Assembly (NCBI GenBank): GCA_029862185.1
Contig: JAOTXX010000023.1
Location: 1-51,946 of the forward strand
DNA: 51,946 nucleotides
Source: Myxococcales bacterium
GTDB taxonomy: Bacteria; Myxococcota_A; Polyangia; Polyangiales; Houyiibacteriaceae
Direction of reading: 5' to 3'
Shown here: one piece after another, positions 41,872-47,214 of the stretch
How the letters are laid out: every line of letters begins with the position of its first letter
How positions within the stretch are numbered: the stretch's first letter is position 1
The notes under the pieces: model-generated
Told to the model about the DNA's origin: nothing
The model's database searches: none
What the model saw: the letters and a program-made list of their open reading frames with translations, nothing else
Position numbers and translations under genes: made by a program

Positions 41872-43572
41872 TTAGGCCCCGAGGCAGGGCAGGGTGACCA
41901 GGACGCGCGTGTGCTGGCCGACCTCGCTCTGAATCGCGATGCTACCCCGATGCTCTTCGATGATCTTTTTCACGATCGAAAGGCCAAGCCCGGTCCCCTT
42001 GCCCTTGCGCCGCGTCGAGAAGAAGGGCTCGAAGACCCGGCTGAGCTCGGTCGGCCGAATCCCCACGCCATTGTCCTCGACCTCGATTTGGATTTGGTCG
42101 TGGCCGTGGAGCCTGGTGGACAACTGCACGCGTCCGCCCTCTTCGGGGGCCGCGTTACATGCGTTGGTGATGAGATTGACGAATACCTGGTGGAGCTGCC
42201 CGTGCACGGCCTTTACGTCAGGAAGGTTCTCACCGTAGTTCCGTATCACGGTCACGTTTGCTTCGCGAATGCTGTGCTCGCAAAACCCCTCCGCCTCTTG
42301 GATTACGCGATTGACCGAGATAGGCTGCGCCTCTTCTTTCGAAGGGCGTGCATAGGTCAATAGATTGCGGGTGAAAGACATGATGCGATCGGAGCTTCGC
42401 AAGATGCGCTCCATACGCTTCAGGTCCGACTGCTCGGCGCCGCTGCGCGACAGCTTGCTCATCAGGTACTCGCCGTAGACGGAAATGCTCGTCAGCGGGT
42501 TGTTGATTTCGTGTACGATGCCCGCAGCGAGCTGACCGAGTGTCGCCAGCTTCTCGGCGTGGATGACCTGGCCTTCGAGCTCGCGTACCTCGGTCCGGTC
42601 CTGCCCGATCGCGATGACGCCCGCCACGCTGCCCTCCGACTCGAGAATCGGTGCTAGCGTGAACTGAAGCCGCGCGTTCCCGCCGCCGGCTTTCGGCAAC
42701 CTCAGCTCGAACGGCGGTACGTCTCCACCGCGAAGCGCATGGACGAAAGCCGACAAGACGCGCACACGTTCGTTTTGCCCGGCCAGTTGCAGCAGATCCC
42801 TCGAGACCAGCTCGGCCCGATCGAGGCCAGTGATGCGACCGAAGGCGCCGCTTACGACGCGAATGTTGCGGTCACGGCCGATCACCAAGACGGGAATGTT
42901 CGCATGCTCCAGAAGTTTCTCGAGGTAGTCGCGCAGGTGGAGCGACTCGCGGCGCAGACGGCCGCTTTCGATCGCCGCGCTGGCCTGTGTGGCCGCCATC
43001 AGCAGTGCGTCCTCCAAGCGAGACGGAACCCCGGTGCCCCGCTCGAACTCAGCCGCCAGGACTCCAAAGACCTCTCCCGCACGCGCCAACGCAACATCCA
43101 AACCATCGGCGGGAAGGAGCCCCTCGCCATGCCCCGCGAGCAAGATGGGCTCGTATGTTCGCCGCAAGATCATCGCCGGAGGCGGCTCTGCCGTTTCCCC
43201 AAAGCCCGCTCGAACGAGCCCCGCTTCGGTGATCGAGAGCTCGTCCAGCGCTTCGGGCCGAATGTGATGCGTGGCGGCTTGGACGATGGCGCCGCGCTCC
43301 AGCAGTCCGCGCGATAGCCTCATCGCGAAGCGGACCCCCGGATAGAGGCGCTCGAGCGCGTACACGTACGCGCGGAGAATATGCTCGTCGGTCGTCGGCC
43401 CCGCCGTCTCGCGCTGTGCCTGGGTCAGCGAGGCCAGCACAGCCGGCAGTGTTGGGCCTGTAGAGTGCTGGCCCCGACCGCGTCGCGGCGAAATGATCGA
43501 CTTCACAGAGGACACCCGCGGCTCCGGGCCTTGCTCCTGGGCAGGGGGCTTTCTGTGTGCGGAGTCGTCCAT
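41872..43572 (-). CDS. Soluble hybrid-sensor histidine kinase (GAF-like, PAS, HisKA, HATPase)
   Basis: 566 residues without a membrane segment. A disordered N-terminus precedes a GAF-like region (about 55-205), a PAS domain (about 217-330), HisKA with His354 in AAGIVHEINNPLTSISVYG, and a full ATPase domain (N470, DNGVGI at 500-505, GKGTGLGLSIV). It should autophosphorylate in response to a cytosolic signal. It starts 3 bases after the stop of the HisKA-only protein, so the two are almost certainly coexpressed. No cognate response regulator follows. Confidence 0.93.
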   Translation of the reverse strand: MDDSAHRKPPAQEQGPEPRVSSVKSIISPRRGRGQHSTGPTLPAVLASLTQAQRETAGPTTDEHILRAYVYALERLYPGVRFAMRLSRGLLERGAIVQAATHHIRPEALDELSITEAGLVRAGFGETAEPPPAMILRRTYEPILLAGHGEGLLPADGLDVALARAGEVFGVLAAEFERGTGVPSRLEDALLMAATQASAAIESGRLRRESLHLRDYLEKLLEHANIPVLVIGRDRNIRVVSGAFGRITGLDRAELVSRDLLQLAGQNERVRVLSAFVHALRGGDVPPFELRLPKAGGGNARLQFTLAPILESEGSVAGVIAIGQDRTEVRELEGQVIHAEKLATLGQLAAGIVHEINNPLTSISVYGEYLMSKLSRSGAEQSDLKRMERILRSSDRIMSFTRNLLTYARPSKEEAQPISVNRVIQEAEGFCEHSIREANVTVIRNYGENLPDVKAVHGQLHQVFVNLITNACNAAPEEGGRVQLSTRLHGHDQIQIEVEDNGVGIRPTELSRVFEPFFSTRRKGKGTGLGLSIVKKIIEEHRGSIAIQSEVGQHTRVLVTLPCLGA

Positions 43573-43575
43573 CGC

Positions 43576-44964
43576 TCAGCCCTTGGCTCCTGGTTCACTC
43601 GGCCCGTCGGCCGCGCGATCGAGATCGAAGATCTTCTGGTGGCCGACGTACGAGGTGGTTTCGTACCGGGTGATCTTTCCAATTTTGCGGACGATCTCCG
43701 CCATACGTTCCGCTTCGCGAATCAGCACCCGTGCTGCCTTTGCCCCGTTCGATTCTGGCTCGGATTGGCGCAGGAGAAGCTCGGCGTATGCCATCATGCT
43801 GGTCAGGGGCTGGTTGAGCTCGTGAGCCGCAGTGCCGGCCAGCTCGGCGAGGACTCCTTGCTTCTCGGTGAATGCCAACTTTTTTTGTGCCTCGGCGAGA
43901 CGCTCCTCGACTCGGATTCGGTCGCGCAAATCGGCGAAAATGAGAACCACCGCCGAGGGTTCGCCCGTTTCGTAGATCAGCGAAGCCGAAAGCTGCACCG
44001 GAATTCGTGCGCCGTGGATGTCGAGAAGGTCGAGCATGGTCGGCTCGAGTCGGCCTGGGCCGCCGTGCTCCGCGGAGAGCACACGTTGGGTGACGAGCTG
44101 GGCCGTCGCACGCCCGAGAAGATCTACGAGCGTCACGGCTCCGACCACGTCTGATTCGTGATACCCGGTGATTCGCGCGGCGCTCGCATTGAACAAGCGC
44201 ACGCGTTGCTCCATGTCGGTTGCAATGATCGCGTCGACGCTCGCGTCGATCAACGATTCCAGGAACTCCATCGTTTGGATGAGCTCCTGCTCGGTTTGGC
44301 GTTGAAGGGTTACGTCTTCGAACGAGATCACGGTGTGATCCTCCCCGCCGATCAGGGGAGCGAACGAGGAGTTGCAAATGATGTTCGTCCCATCTCGCCG
44401 GACGAGATGGATGTCCATCCCGCGGGGATACTGGCCTTGAGAGAGGGCCTCTCGAACCCGCGGAAGATCTTCGTCGGAAAGCAAGTGCCCGATGTCCTGA
44501 GAGACGATTGTTTCCTCGCGGTGCCCCGTGATTTCGTTGCAGCGCGGGTTGGCCATCAGGATCTCTAGGTCAGGGCCCAGCACGACGATGCCCATTGCCA
44601 TCGACGCGAACGCCTTGGAGTACCGGCTCTGCAAATCGCCGATCGGACTCCGCGCGAGTAGGCGCTCGAGACGGGCCAGTAGTGGCTCGCGGCGAGTCGG
44701 CCGGAAAACGAAATCGCTCGCGAGCAGATCCGGGCCCTCGGAATACTCTCCCTCGACGACCAGAAGAATGGGCTTTCCGCGGATCGGTTTCCAGGCCGCT
44801 GCCTCAGGGTTGGCAGCGTCCAGCACCACCACGTCTTGTTGCAACTCCGCATCGTCCAAGACCTCGGGCCCGAGCCACTCGACCGACCAATCGGTTCCTT
44901 CCATGGCAGAGACGAGCTCCTGGTGAAGCTCGGGATCTTTCGAAATCAGTGCCAGTGCGGGCAT
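43576..44964 (-). CDS. PAS-PAS-HisKA protein lacking the ATPase domain
   Basis: 462 residues. The N-terminal ~110 residues look like a receiver fold without its motifs (DVVVLDAANPEA at 44-55 stands where the phospho-Asp loop would be). Two PAS domains follow (about 113-222 and 232-350), then a HisKA helix with His381 in GTAAHELNQPLTSMMAYAE. The protein ends at about residue 450 (KITRYETTSYVGHQKIFDLD) with no N, G1 or G2 box, so it cannot autophosphorylate. Its tail is tidy, without a shifted ATPase frame downstream, so this looks like an evolved form. It may receive phosphate from the neighbour kinase. Confidence 0.88.
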   Translation of the reverse strand: MPALALISKDPELHQELVSAMEGTDWSVEWLGPEVLDDAELQQDVVVLDAANPEAAAWKPIRGKPILLVVEGEYSEGPDLLASDFVFRPTRREPLLARLERLLARSPIGDLQSRYSKAFASMAMGIVVLGPDLEILMANPRCNEITGHREETIVSQDIGHLLSDEDLPRVREALSQGQYPRGMDIHLVRRDGTNIICNSSFAPLIGGEDHTVISFEDVTLQRQTEQELIQTMEFLESLIDASVDAIIATDMEQRVRLFNASAARITGYHESDVVGAVTLVDLLGRATAQLVTQRVLSAEHGGPGRLEPTMLDLLDIHGARIPVQLSASLIYETGEPSAVVLIFADLRDRIRVEERLAEAQKKLAFTEKQGVLAELAGTAAHELNQPLTSMMAYAELLLRQSEPESNGAKAARVLIREAERMAEIVRKIGKITRYETTSYVGHQKIFDLDRAADGPSEPGAKG

Positions 44965-45852: not shown

Positions 45853-45894
45853 TTGCGTTTTACAGTAACACCAATATATTATGTAAATACTGAT
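45853..45894 (+). promoter_or_regulatory. AT-rich promoter candidate for the kinase-receiver gene
   Basis: The 42 bases before the ATG at 45895 are far more AT-rich than their surroundings. TTGCGT (45853-45858) and TATTAT (45877-45882) are spaced 18 bases apart, a passable housekeeping -35/-10 pair. Transcription would start within about 10 bases of the ATG, giving a leaderless or very short-leader mRNA. No Shine-Dalgarno is visible, which agrees with that reading. Confidence 0.45.
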
Positions 45895-47214
45895 ATGCGA
45901 GATTTGAGCGGTGGACAGGCAATCGCTTCGGGCGAGCCACTGGATGACGGCGAGAATCGTATTTTCGCGACCGGTGAGCTCCTCGACGGTGTCTACGAGG
46001 TCATCAAGCTGCTCGGCCGGGGCGGGATGGGCCAGGTCTTTGAAGCCCACGACCACCTGCTCAATCGACGAGTTGCGATCAAGGCCGCCTGGCCGAATCC
46101 CCTGACGCCGCCTCTTCGAAACGAGGCTCGCGCGCTGGCCGCGTTCCAGCATCCCAGTTTGGTCAGCGTTCACACGCTGGGTGAGCACCGCGGGATCGAC
46201 TACCTGGTGATGGAGCGGGTCTACGGCGTGTCGCTGACCCAGCACGCTGACACCCGTTGGGGAAGCGGCGAGCCTTTTAGCGTGTCCGAAATGGTGCAGA
46301 TCCTGCTGCCGGCCGCCGAAGGGCTCAGCGTCGTTCACCGCGCAGGGCTCGTTCATCGAGACATCAAGCCGGACAACATCATGCTGACTCCGGTTCATCG
46401 TGTGGTGCTGATGGACTTTGGGCTCGTCTTGCCGGAGTTCGATGTCAACGGAAAGCAGCGTGTCGCGGGCTCTCCCCCGTACATGGCACCGGAGTCGCTG
46501 CTCAACACGGCGGCGCCCGGCAGCGGTCATCTCGTCGACATCTTTGCGCTAGGCGTGCTCGCCTACGAGTTGCTCACCCAGTCGCGACCGTATGACGGCG
46601 GGACGATTCGTGAAGTGGTCGCAGCACATGAGCGGGGTCAACCCGTGCCTCTCGCCGAGCTCAGGCCCGATTGCCCATTGGCCATGTGTCAGCTTGTCCA
46701 CGAAATGCTCAACCCGAATCCGCAAATGCGCAACCAAAGCGCCGAAGCCGTTGCGTGGCAGTTGCGCGCGATCCGCGACGAGCGACCCCGCAGCCAAGAC
46801 CCGAAGGAGGCGAGTCCCAAGGCGCCTTCGGTGCTGATCGTCGATGACGATGTGGACCTCGCAAAGATCCTCACATTCTACGTGCGGCAGATTCTTGGTC
46901 CGGCCGTCATTAGGGTTGCCCATGACGGCGAAGAGGCGTTGAGGGAAGTCCAAAAGGAAGAGCCCGATGTCATGCTGCTCGATTTGCACATGCCCCGCAT
47001 GAACGGCGTCGAGCTTTGCATGCAGCTCAGAGGCGAAGGGCTTGCGCAGAGCTGTTCCATCATCTCGGTCAGTGCCGGCGCGCAGGAGCACGATGTCCAG
47101 CTTCTTCATCAGCTGGGAATTCATCACTTCGTCGAAAAGGGGTCGAACTTGCGGGAGCGACTTCGGATGGTGATCGCCGAAGCCTGTGGCGACCAAGTTC
47201 TGGCGAACGACTAA
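45895..47214 (+). CDS. Ser/Thr protein kinase fused to a receiver domain
   Basis: 439 residues from the ATG at 45895. The kinase domain (about 33-295) is complete: GRGGMGQVF loop (41-49), Lys63 in VAIK, HRDIKPDN with Asp156, DFG at 174-176 and GSPPYMAPE. A short linker joins a receiver domain (about 312-430) with VLIVDDDVDL (Asp317-319), phospho-acceptor Asp363 in MLLDLHMPRMNG, a switch Ser in IISVSAG and Lys in FVEKGSN. Both halves look active. Phosphorylation of Asp363 could switch kinase activity. It faces away from the histidine-kinase pair. A start 14 codons upstream lies in AT-rich promoter-like DNA and is rejected. Confidence 0.9.
   Translation: MRDLSGGQAIASGEPLDDGENRIFATGELLDGVYEVIKLLGRGGMGQVFEAHDHLLNRRVAIKAAWPNPLTPPLRNEARALAAFQHPSLVSVHTLGEHRGIDYLVMERVYGVSLTQHADTRWGSGEPFSVSEMVQILLPAAEGLSVVHRAGLVHRDIKPDNIMLTPVHRVVLMDFGLVLPEFDVNGKQRVAGSPPYMAPESLLNTAAPGSGHLVDIFALGVLAYELLTQSRPYDGGTIREVVAAHERGQPVPLAELRPDCPLAMCQLVHEMLNPNPQMRNQSAEAVAWQLRAIRDERPRSQDPKEASPKAPSVLIVDDDVDLAKILTFYVRQILGPAVIRVAHDGEEALREVQKEEPDVMLLDLHMPRMNGVELCMQLRGEGLAQSCSIISVSAGAQEHDVQLLHQLGIHHFVEKGSNLRERLRMVIAEACGDQVLAND

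Follow-up and report, generated by a model that had tools for sequence, protein, structure and literature searches.

The gene at positions 43576 to 44964 on the minus strand of the window (the whole stretch of 51,946 nucleotides that was analyzed) encodes a protein of 462 amino acids, designated P1. On the basis of the ORF, its translation, Pfam searches, and a 46-member alignment, P1 consists of a pseudo-receiver, two PAS domains, a HisKA domain, and a conserved tail, without an ATPase domain. The first PAS domain covers residues 113 to 220 approximately (44305–44628, minus strand; Pfam PAS_9 at residues 125–219, pLDDT about 90 in the structure model), and the second covers residues 233 to 345 (43930–44268, minus strand; Pfam PAS, E 3.9e-19). 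The HisKA (DHp) helical hairpin with the H box HELNQPL follows at residues 347 to 433 (43666–43926, minus strand), as indicated by Pfam, the model helices, and its low dN/dS. Its match to the HisKA family (PF00512) at residues 373–428, with an E-value of 1.9e-11 and 44.3 bits against a curated cut-off of 26.9, and the presence of the acceptor histidine place P1 within this family. This phospho-acceptor, His381 (codon 43822–43824, minus strand), is invariant in all 46 aligned members, and the stop codon is encountered about 80 residues past it. The hairpin is followed by a C-terminal tail of 17 residues (434–450, YETTSYVGHQKIFDLDR; 43615–43665, minus strand), recognized as conserved from alignments and dN/dS. 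A Pfam scan found no HATPase domain in P1 or in any of the 46 orthologues, and P1 thus does not contain the HATPase_c domain with N, G1, and G2 boxes that an autokinase carries in the same protein. Among the 25 NCBIfam matches listed for P1, only a generic sensory_box domain passed its cut-off and no named equivalog was found. In the structure model, the PAS and HisKA domains were well predicted, with helices at residues 347–400 and 406–432; pLDDT values were below 50 at the N-terminus and in the tail, on which the model is uninformative. The best 50 fold matches to this model were generic PAS and histidine kinase structures, and the PDB sequence matches to the P1 HisKA profile included LvrB, ZraS, FixL chimaeras, sporulation kinase B, and DivL, with Spo0B and ChpT not among them.

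The next ORF downstream (41872–43572, minus strand) encodes P2, a complete histidine kinase of 566 amino acids in which an N-terminal region is followed by PAS, HisKA, and HATPase domains. All three domains were matched in Pfam (HATPase_c, E 2.6e-28), and the protein contains the N, G1, and G2 boxes as well as its own histidine. The start codon of P2 lies 3 bases after the P1 stop, the stop and gap reading TGA GCG (43573–43578, minus strand). For the coordinates, the strand, the length of 462 amino acids, and the 3-base gap (TGA GCG ATG), the preliminary description of this locus agrees with the sequence, and its account of a pair of PAS domains, an intact phospho-acceptor helix, and no ATPase domain agrees with Pfam. 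Two genes from P1, with murI between, a gene on the plus strand (45853–47214) encodes a Ser/Thr protein kinase (Pfam Pkinase, residues 48–300) with a canonical C-terminal receiver (Response_reg, residues 327–435). Within the genus, this gene is present on every contig that extends far enough, and it is a neighbor of P1 in four further genomes of the family. Elsewhere in the genome of the window, two HisKA proteins with open frames of 376 and 325 amino acids are encoded in tandem at locus L116 (contig C45, about 39.2–41.2 kb, minus strand). Neither gave a HATPase match. They apparently carry membrane segments at the N-terminus and ATPase domains that have degenerated, and they form a second group of presumably catalytically dead kinases, distinct from P1.

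The preliminary description had overlooked that residues 1 to 105 of P1 (44650–44964, minus strand) are a degenerate receiver domain. When the N-terminal profile of the same genus was compared by hhalign with the receivers of outgroup orthologues, the two aligned with a probability of 88% and an E-value of 2.9e-6 over 96 columns. The phospho-Asp position is kept in P1 (D49), S8 replaces the first acid of the acidic pair, and R88 replaces the Lys, such that the complete set of a functional receiver (acidic pair, phospho-Asp, Thr/Ser, and Lys) is not present in the window's P1. Some outgroup P1 proteins do combine a CA-less HisKA domain with a canonical receiver (DD, D, T, K). In other lineages, most of the window's family among them, the receiver is degenerate, and in the window's genus it is shrunken; in nearly all members read from that family outside the genus, the phospho-Asp is replaced. 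As the acceptor histidine is invariant while the receiver decays, the histidine is retained whatever happens to P1's own receiver. The repeated decay rules out this receiver as an obligatory phosphate donor to P1.

Conservation of P1 as a family

The genome of the window is 4.29 Mb in 169 contigs; those of its relatives that carry names are metagenome-assembled records filed under Myxococcales, Polyangiaceae, or Deltaproteobacteria. Genomes within the phylum were searched with one genome per species. Full-length P1 was found in 16 of the 18 other genomes of the genus at 68–84% identity and with the same end; it was partial in one and missing from another, an 80% complete genome. Orthologues from other families and classes are mostly about 670 amino acids long with a receiver-GAF-PAS-PAS-HisKA organization and the same ending. 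Across the 46 aligned members, at identities down to 31–33%, HisKA was matched in 46, GAF in 35, a recognizable receiver in 24, and HATPase in none. When 377 genomes from across the phylum were searched with a profile of HisKA plus tail, 133 of them gave a match at E ≤ 1e-18, and in each of these the match was the only one. Unfused P1 was present in 139 genomes with readable DNA, and 134 of these proteins end within 60 amino acids past the tail (median 11 amino acids).

The alignment has a mean column identity of 38%, and H381, E382, N384, Q385, and P386 are invariant in all 46 members, as are the tail residues T436, Y439, G441, I445, and D447. Within the genus, dN/dS was 0.285 for the N-terminus, 0.171 for PAS1, 0.100 for PAS2, 0.034 for HisKA, and 0.031 for the tail, ratios that are approximate given strongly diverged synonymous sites, with a clear order. 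HisKA and the tail are thus the most constrained parts of P1 within the genus, and P1 is a single-copy conserved CA-less family rather than a fragment. The earlier proposal that P1 does not represent a recent truncation holds, as same-genus orthologues end alike and 46 orthologues, down to 31–33% identity, have no HATPase domain, and the C-terminal motif is likewise conserved. The wording that the ATPase domain had been "lost" is unsupported, since no relative was seen in which the P1 HisKA is directly followed by its own HATPase domain.

Adjacency and fusion of P1 and P2

A HATPase-bearing, P2-like ORF lies directly downstream of P1 in 100 of 131 scorable genomes, and the two are fused in 3 more; no adjacent kinase is found beside P1 in 28 genomes, and 11 genomes were unscorable. 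With 38 HATPase matches in the window's genome, and assuming about 4000 genes, a same-strand kinase neighbor would be expected by chance at a level of about 1%. In some relatives, the P1 stop and P2 start overlap as TGATG, which suggests translational coupling of the two genes. Readthrough of the P1 stop codon into P2 was rejected, as the in-frame TGA GCG ATG is not kept and the TGATG of some relatives places P2 in another frame. In the search of relatives, no genome encoded P2 (E ≤ 1e-60) without P1, with the exception of the fusions and of G013. In the latter, a one-contig genome, only residues 1–179 of P1 are present and P2 is 0.8 Mb away, either because a rearrangement has cut through the gene or because the genome was misassembled.

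Acceptor and catalytic domains are found on separate, linked proteins in P1 and P2, as in a split kinase, and P2 also has its own acceptor. Wherever they were read, P2 relatives keep their own histidine and catalytic boxes, and a complementary split kinase with a dead histidine in P2 was rejected because that histidine is retained (G021 reads HEMNHP). P1 proteins that have no adjacent kinase have an intact histidine. In one such genome (G026), the gene is directly before degP. In two others (G050 and G055), P1 without P2 is near groES-groEL, a possible hint at a stress role. No clear P2 orthologue was found elsewhere in those P1-without-neighbor genomes that were checked, and P1 in these must therefore use another kinase or work otherwise.

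P1 and P2 are encoded in one ORF in five genomes from three families, by three different fusion routes. In G127 and G188 (1143 and 1145 amino acids), a receiver-GAF-PAS-HisKA(HELNQP)-tail portion precedes an entire P2, which contributes a second HisKA (HELKNP) and the HATPase domain. In G205 (661 amino acids), the order is PAS-PAS-HisKA(HELNQP)-tail-HisKA(HEISNP)-HATPase. In G042 and G047, GAF-PAS-PAS of P1 is joined to PAS-HisKA-HATPase of P2, and P1's HisKA is gone; in a reciprocal search of 8 genomes, the N-terminal half of this fusion matched P1 best in every one, with E-values of 1e-30 to 1e-38 against 4e-6 for any other match. The G127/G188 and G042/G047 types each occur in two species, which argues against an assembly error. 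The G205 type was seen in one genome, and its congeners G327 and G372 gave no P1 match. A histidine kinase that combines a single ATPase domain with two tandem HisKA domains, each of which has an H box, is encoded at L207:2745–4727 (minus strand).

The preliminary description had considered that its reading would fail if close homologues continued into an ATPase domain or if a shifted ATPase frame lay just downstream. Homologues that continue into an ATPase domain do exist in a few genomes; these ORFs are P1-P2 fusions with a second HisKA, and they therefore strengthen the case for a partner. No stray ATPase frame was found, the downstream HATPase being that of P2, behind P2's own HisKA. The suggestion that the neighbor acts with P1 fared well, as conserved adjacency and repeated gene fusion make P2 very probably its functional partner. 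From fusion and adjacency together, it is very likely that P1 and P2 share one pathway.

Possible roles of His381

The P1-P2 partnership is well supported; the direction of phosphate flow is inferred. We favor, at a probability of about 0.48, the reading that P1 is the sensor and phospho-donor subunit of a two-subunit sensor kinase in which His381 is phosphorylated in trans by P2. P1 would detect signals with its PAS domains (in relatives, with receiver, GAF, and PAS domains) and offer its HisKA histidine, P2 would supply the ATPase domain, and the two would form a heteromer through their HisKA helical bundles and/or P1's conserved tail. His381 would be phosphorylated in trans by P2, either directly or from P2's own histidine via a receiver, and phosphorylated P1 would donate to a receiver elsewhere, possibly that of the nearby Ser/Thr kinase-receiver protein (45853–47214), a candidate output of the pair judging only from the conserved neighborhood. 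In HisKA proteins, an acid at +1 from the histidine is needed for the kinase reaction, and Thr or Asn at +4 for phosphatase activity (PMC3510030). P1 carries Glu at +1 and Gln at +4 of His381. Trans-phosphorylation is favored by the retention of this Glu, by the absence of Thr/Asn at +4, and by two of the three fusion types keeping P1's HisKA with its histidine even where a covalent link already ensures recruitment. Counting against it, P2 has its own histidine and catalytic core wherever read and so does not need P1 as an acceptor, and the 28 genomes with an intact-His P1 but no adjacent kinase present the main difficulty.

The G042/G047 fusion also counts against trans-phosphorylation because it dispenses with P1's HisKA, and this is the arrangement expected if P1 merely couples a sensor to a kinase. 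P1 would in that case resemble RetS, which has a degenerate ATPase domain and inhibits and drains GacS (PMC5992135): it would heterodimerize with P2 via the HisKA bundle and switch P2 by PAS signals, with His381 unphosphorylated and kept for fold or interface. The same adjacency and fusions would be explained. We consider such a modulator rather unlikely, as the histidine and the kinase-specific Glu at +1 are invariant in 46 members, beyond the needs of a dimer interface, two fusion types keep P1's HisKA, and P1 persists where P2 is not adjacent.

That persistence would be accounted for if the P1 HisKA were a dimeric histidine phosphotransferase, comparable to Spo0B or ChpT, that passes phosphate from one receiver to another, the donor being ancestrally P1's own N-terminal receiver charged by P2. 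The canonical receivers of outgroup P1 proteins fit this scheme, and both ChpT and Spo0B use a HisKA-type hairpin, ChpT being unable to autophosphorylate (PMC3433190). However, the degenerate or shrunken receivers of the window's family and genus, alongside a histidine that never varies, indicate that P1's own receiver is not the general donor, and ChpT retains an ATPase-like C-terminal domain that P1 does not have; a role as relay intermediate is accordingly doubtful. The preliminary description had also raised a phosphatase, and P1 could in principle be a transmitter phosphatase that acts on a response regulator once P2 has phosphorylated it, as HisKA domains can have phosphatase activity and about 1.7% of HisKA proteins lack a CA domain but contain the phosphatase motif (PMC3591291). 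This option is weakened to the point of being improbable, since P1 reads HELNQ in place of the motif H-E/D-x-x-T/N, and the Gln at +4 is invariant where the tested HisKA proteins require Thr or Asn (PMC3510030). Finally, the relatives already refute the idea that the P1 gene is a truncated or decaying kinase gene or results from a sequencing frameshift, for which the missing ATPase domain is the sole support: the same kind of end is found in the 139 genomes with unfused P1, dN/dS is 0.03 in HisKA and tail, and the downstream ATPase frame belongs to P2.

It is possible, with the odds somewhat against it, that P1 and P2 exemplify a widespread, unnamed class of two-histidine kinases in which one ATPase domain serves both its own HisKA and that of a CA-less partner (or tandem HisKA domains in the fusions). 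If so, two sensor inputs and two phospho-histidine outputs would be driven by a single catalytic domain. Whether a CA-less HisKA is charged in trans, and by whom, is directly testable with two adjacent gene products, and the tandem-HisKA fusions that occur in nature already provide suitable constructs.

Comparison with known systems

A SMART count from 2013 recorded 1556 CA-less proteins among 42,417 HisKA proteins (3.66%; PMC3591291), and few of these more than 1000 proteins have a known role. That set is a database count and not a described family, whereas the P1 family has a defined tail, a partner, and fusions. A search of the open-access literature found no description of the P1-P2 pair, the tail, or the fusions, which is weak evidence of absence. 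The PAS-PAS-HisKA layout and HELNQPL-type H box of P1 are shared with FixL/NtrB-type PAS kinases, and FixL chimaeras and LOV-PAS-HK are among its best matches in sequence and fold; in those kinases, however, the chain runs on into an ATPase domain. Spo0B and ChpT are dimers in which a HisKA-type helical hairpin carries the phospho-histidine, ChpT having no autokinase activity (PMC3433190). Sensor domains are absent from ChpT, and its C-terminal domain is ATPase-like, whereas the P1 chain stops after the hairpin and includes PAS domains (in relatives also GAF and receiver domains).

Two systems resemble the pair as a whole. In CheA3/CheA4 of Rhodobacter sphaeroides, the acceptor histidine and the ATPase domain are on different cooperating proteins, as with P1 and P2, and phosphorylation occurs in trans (PMC3591291). 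These proteins belong to the CheA family with an Hpt-type P1 domain, and CheA4 has no phosphorylatable domain, whereas P2 is complete with its own histidine. In RetS/GacS of Pseudomonas aeruginosa, a HisKA sensor without a working ATPase domain acts on a complete kinase (PMC5992135). RetS has a degenerate ATPase domain, an HExxT phosphatase motif, and C-terminal receivers, whereas in P1 the ATPase domain is missing altogether and the +4 residue is Gln. CA-less HisKA proteins, split kinases (in the CheA family), and a dead sensor kinase acting on a live one (RetS) are therefore known already; what appears to be new is the conserved P1-P2 pair, a variant of these kinds in which conservation, synteny, and several gene fusions reveal a CA-less HisKA protein maintained as the partner of a complete kinase.
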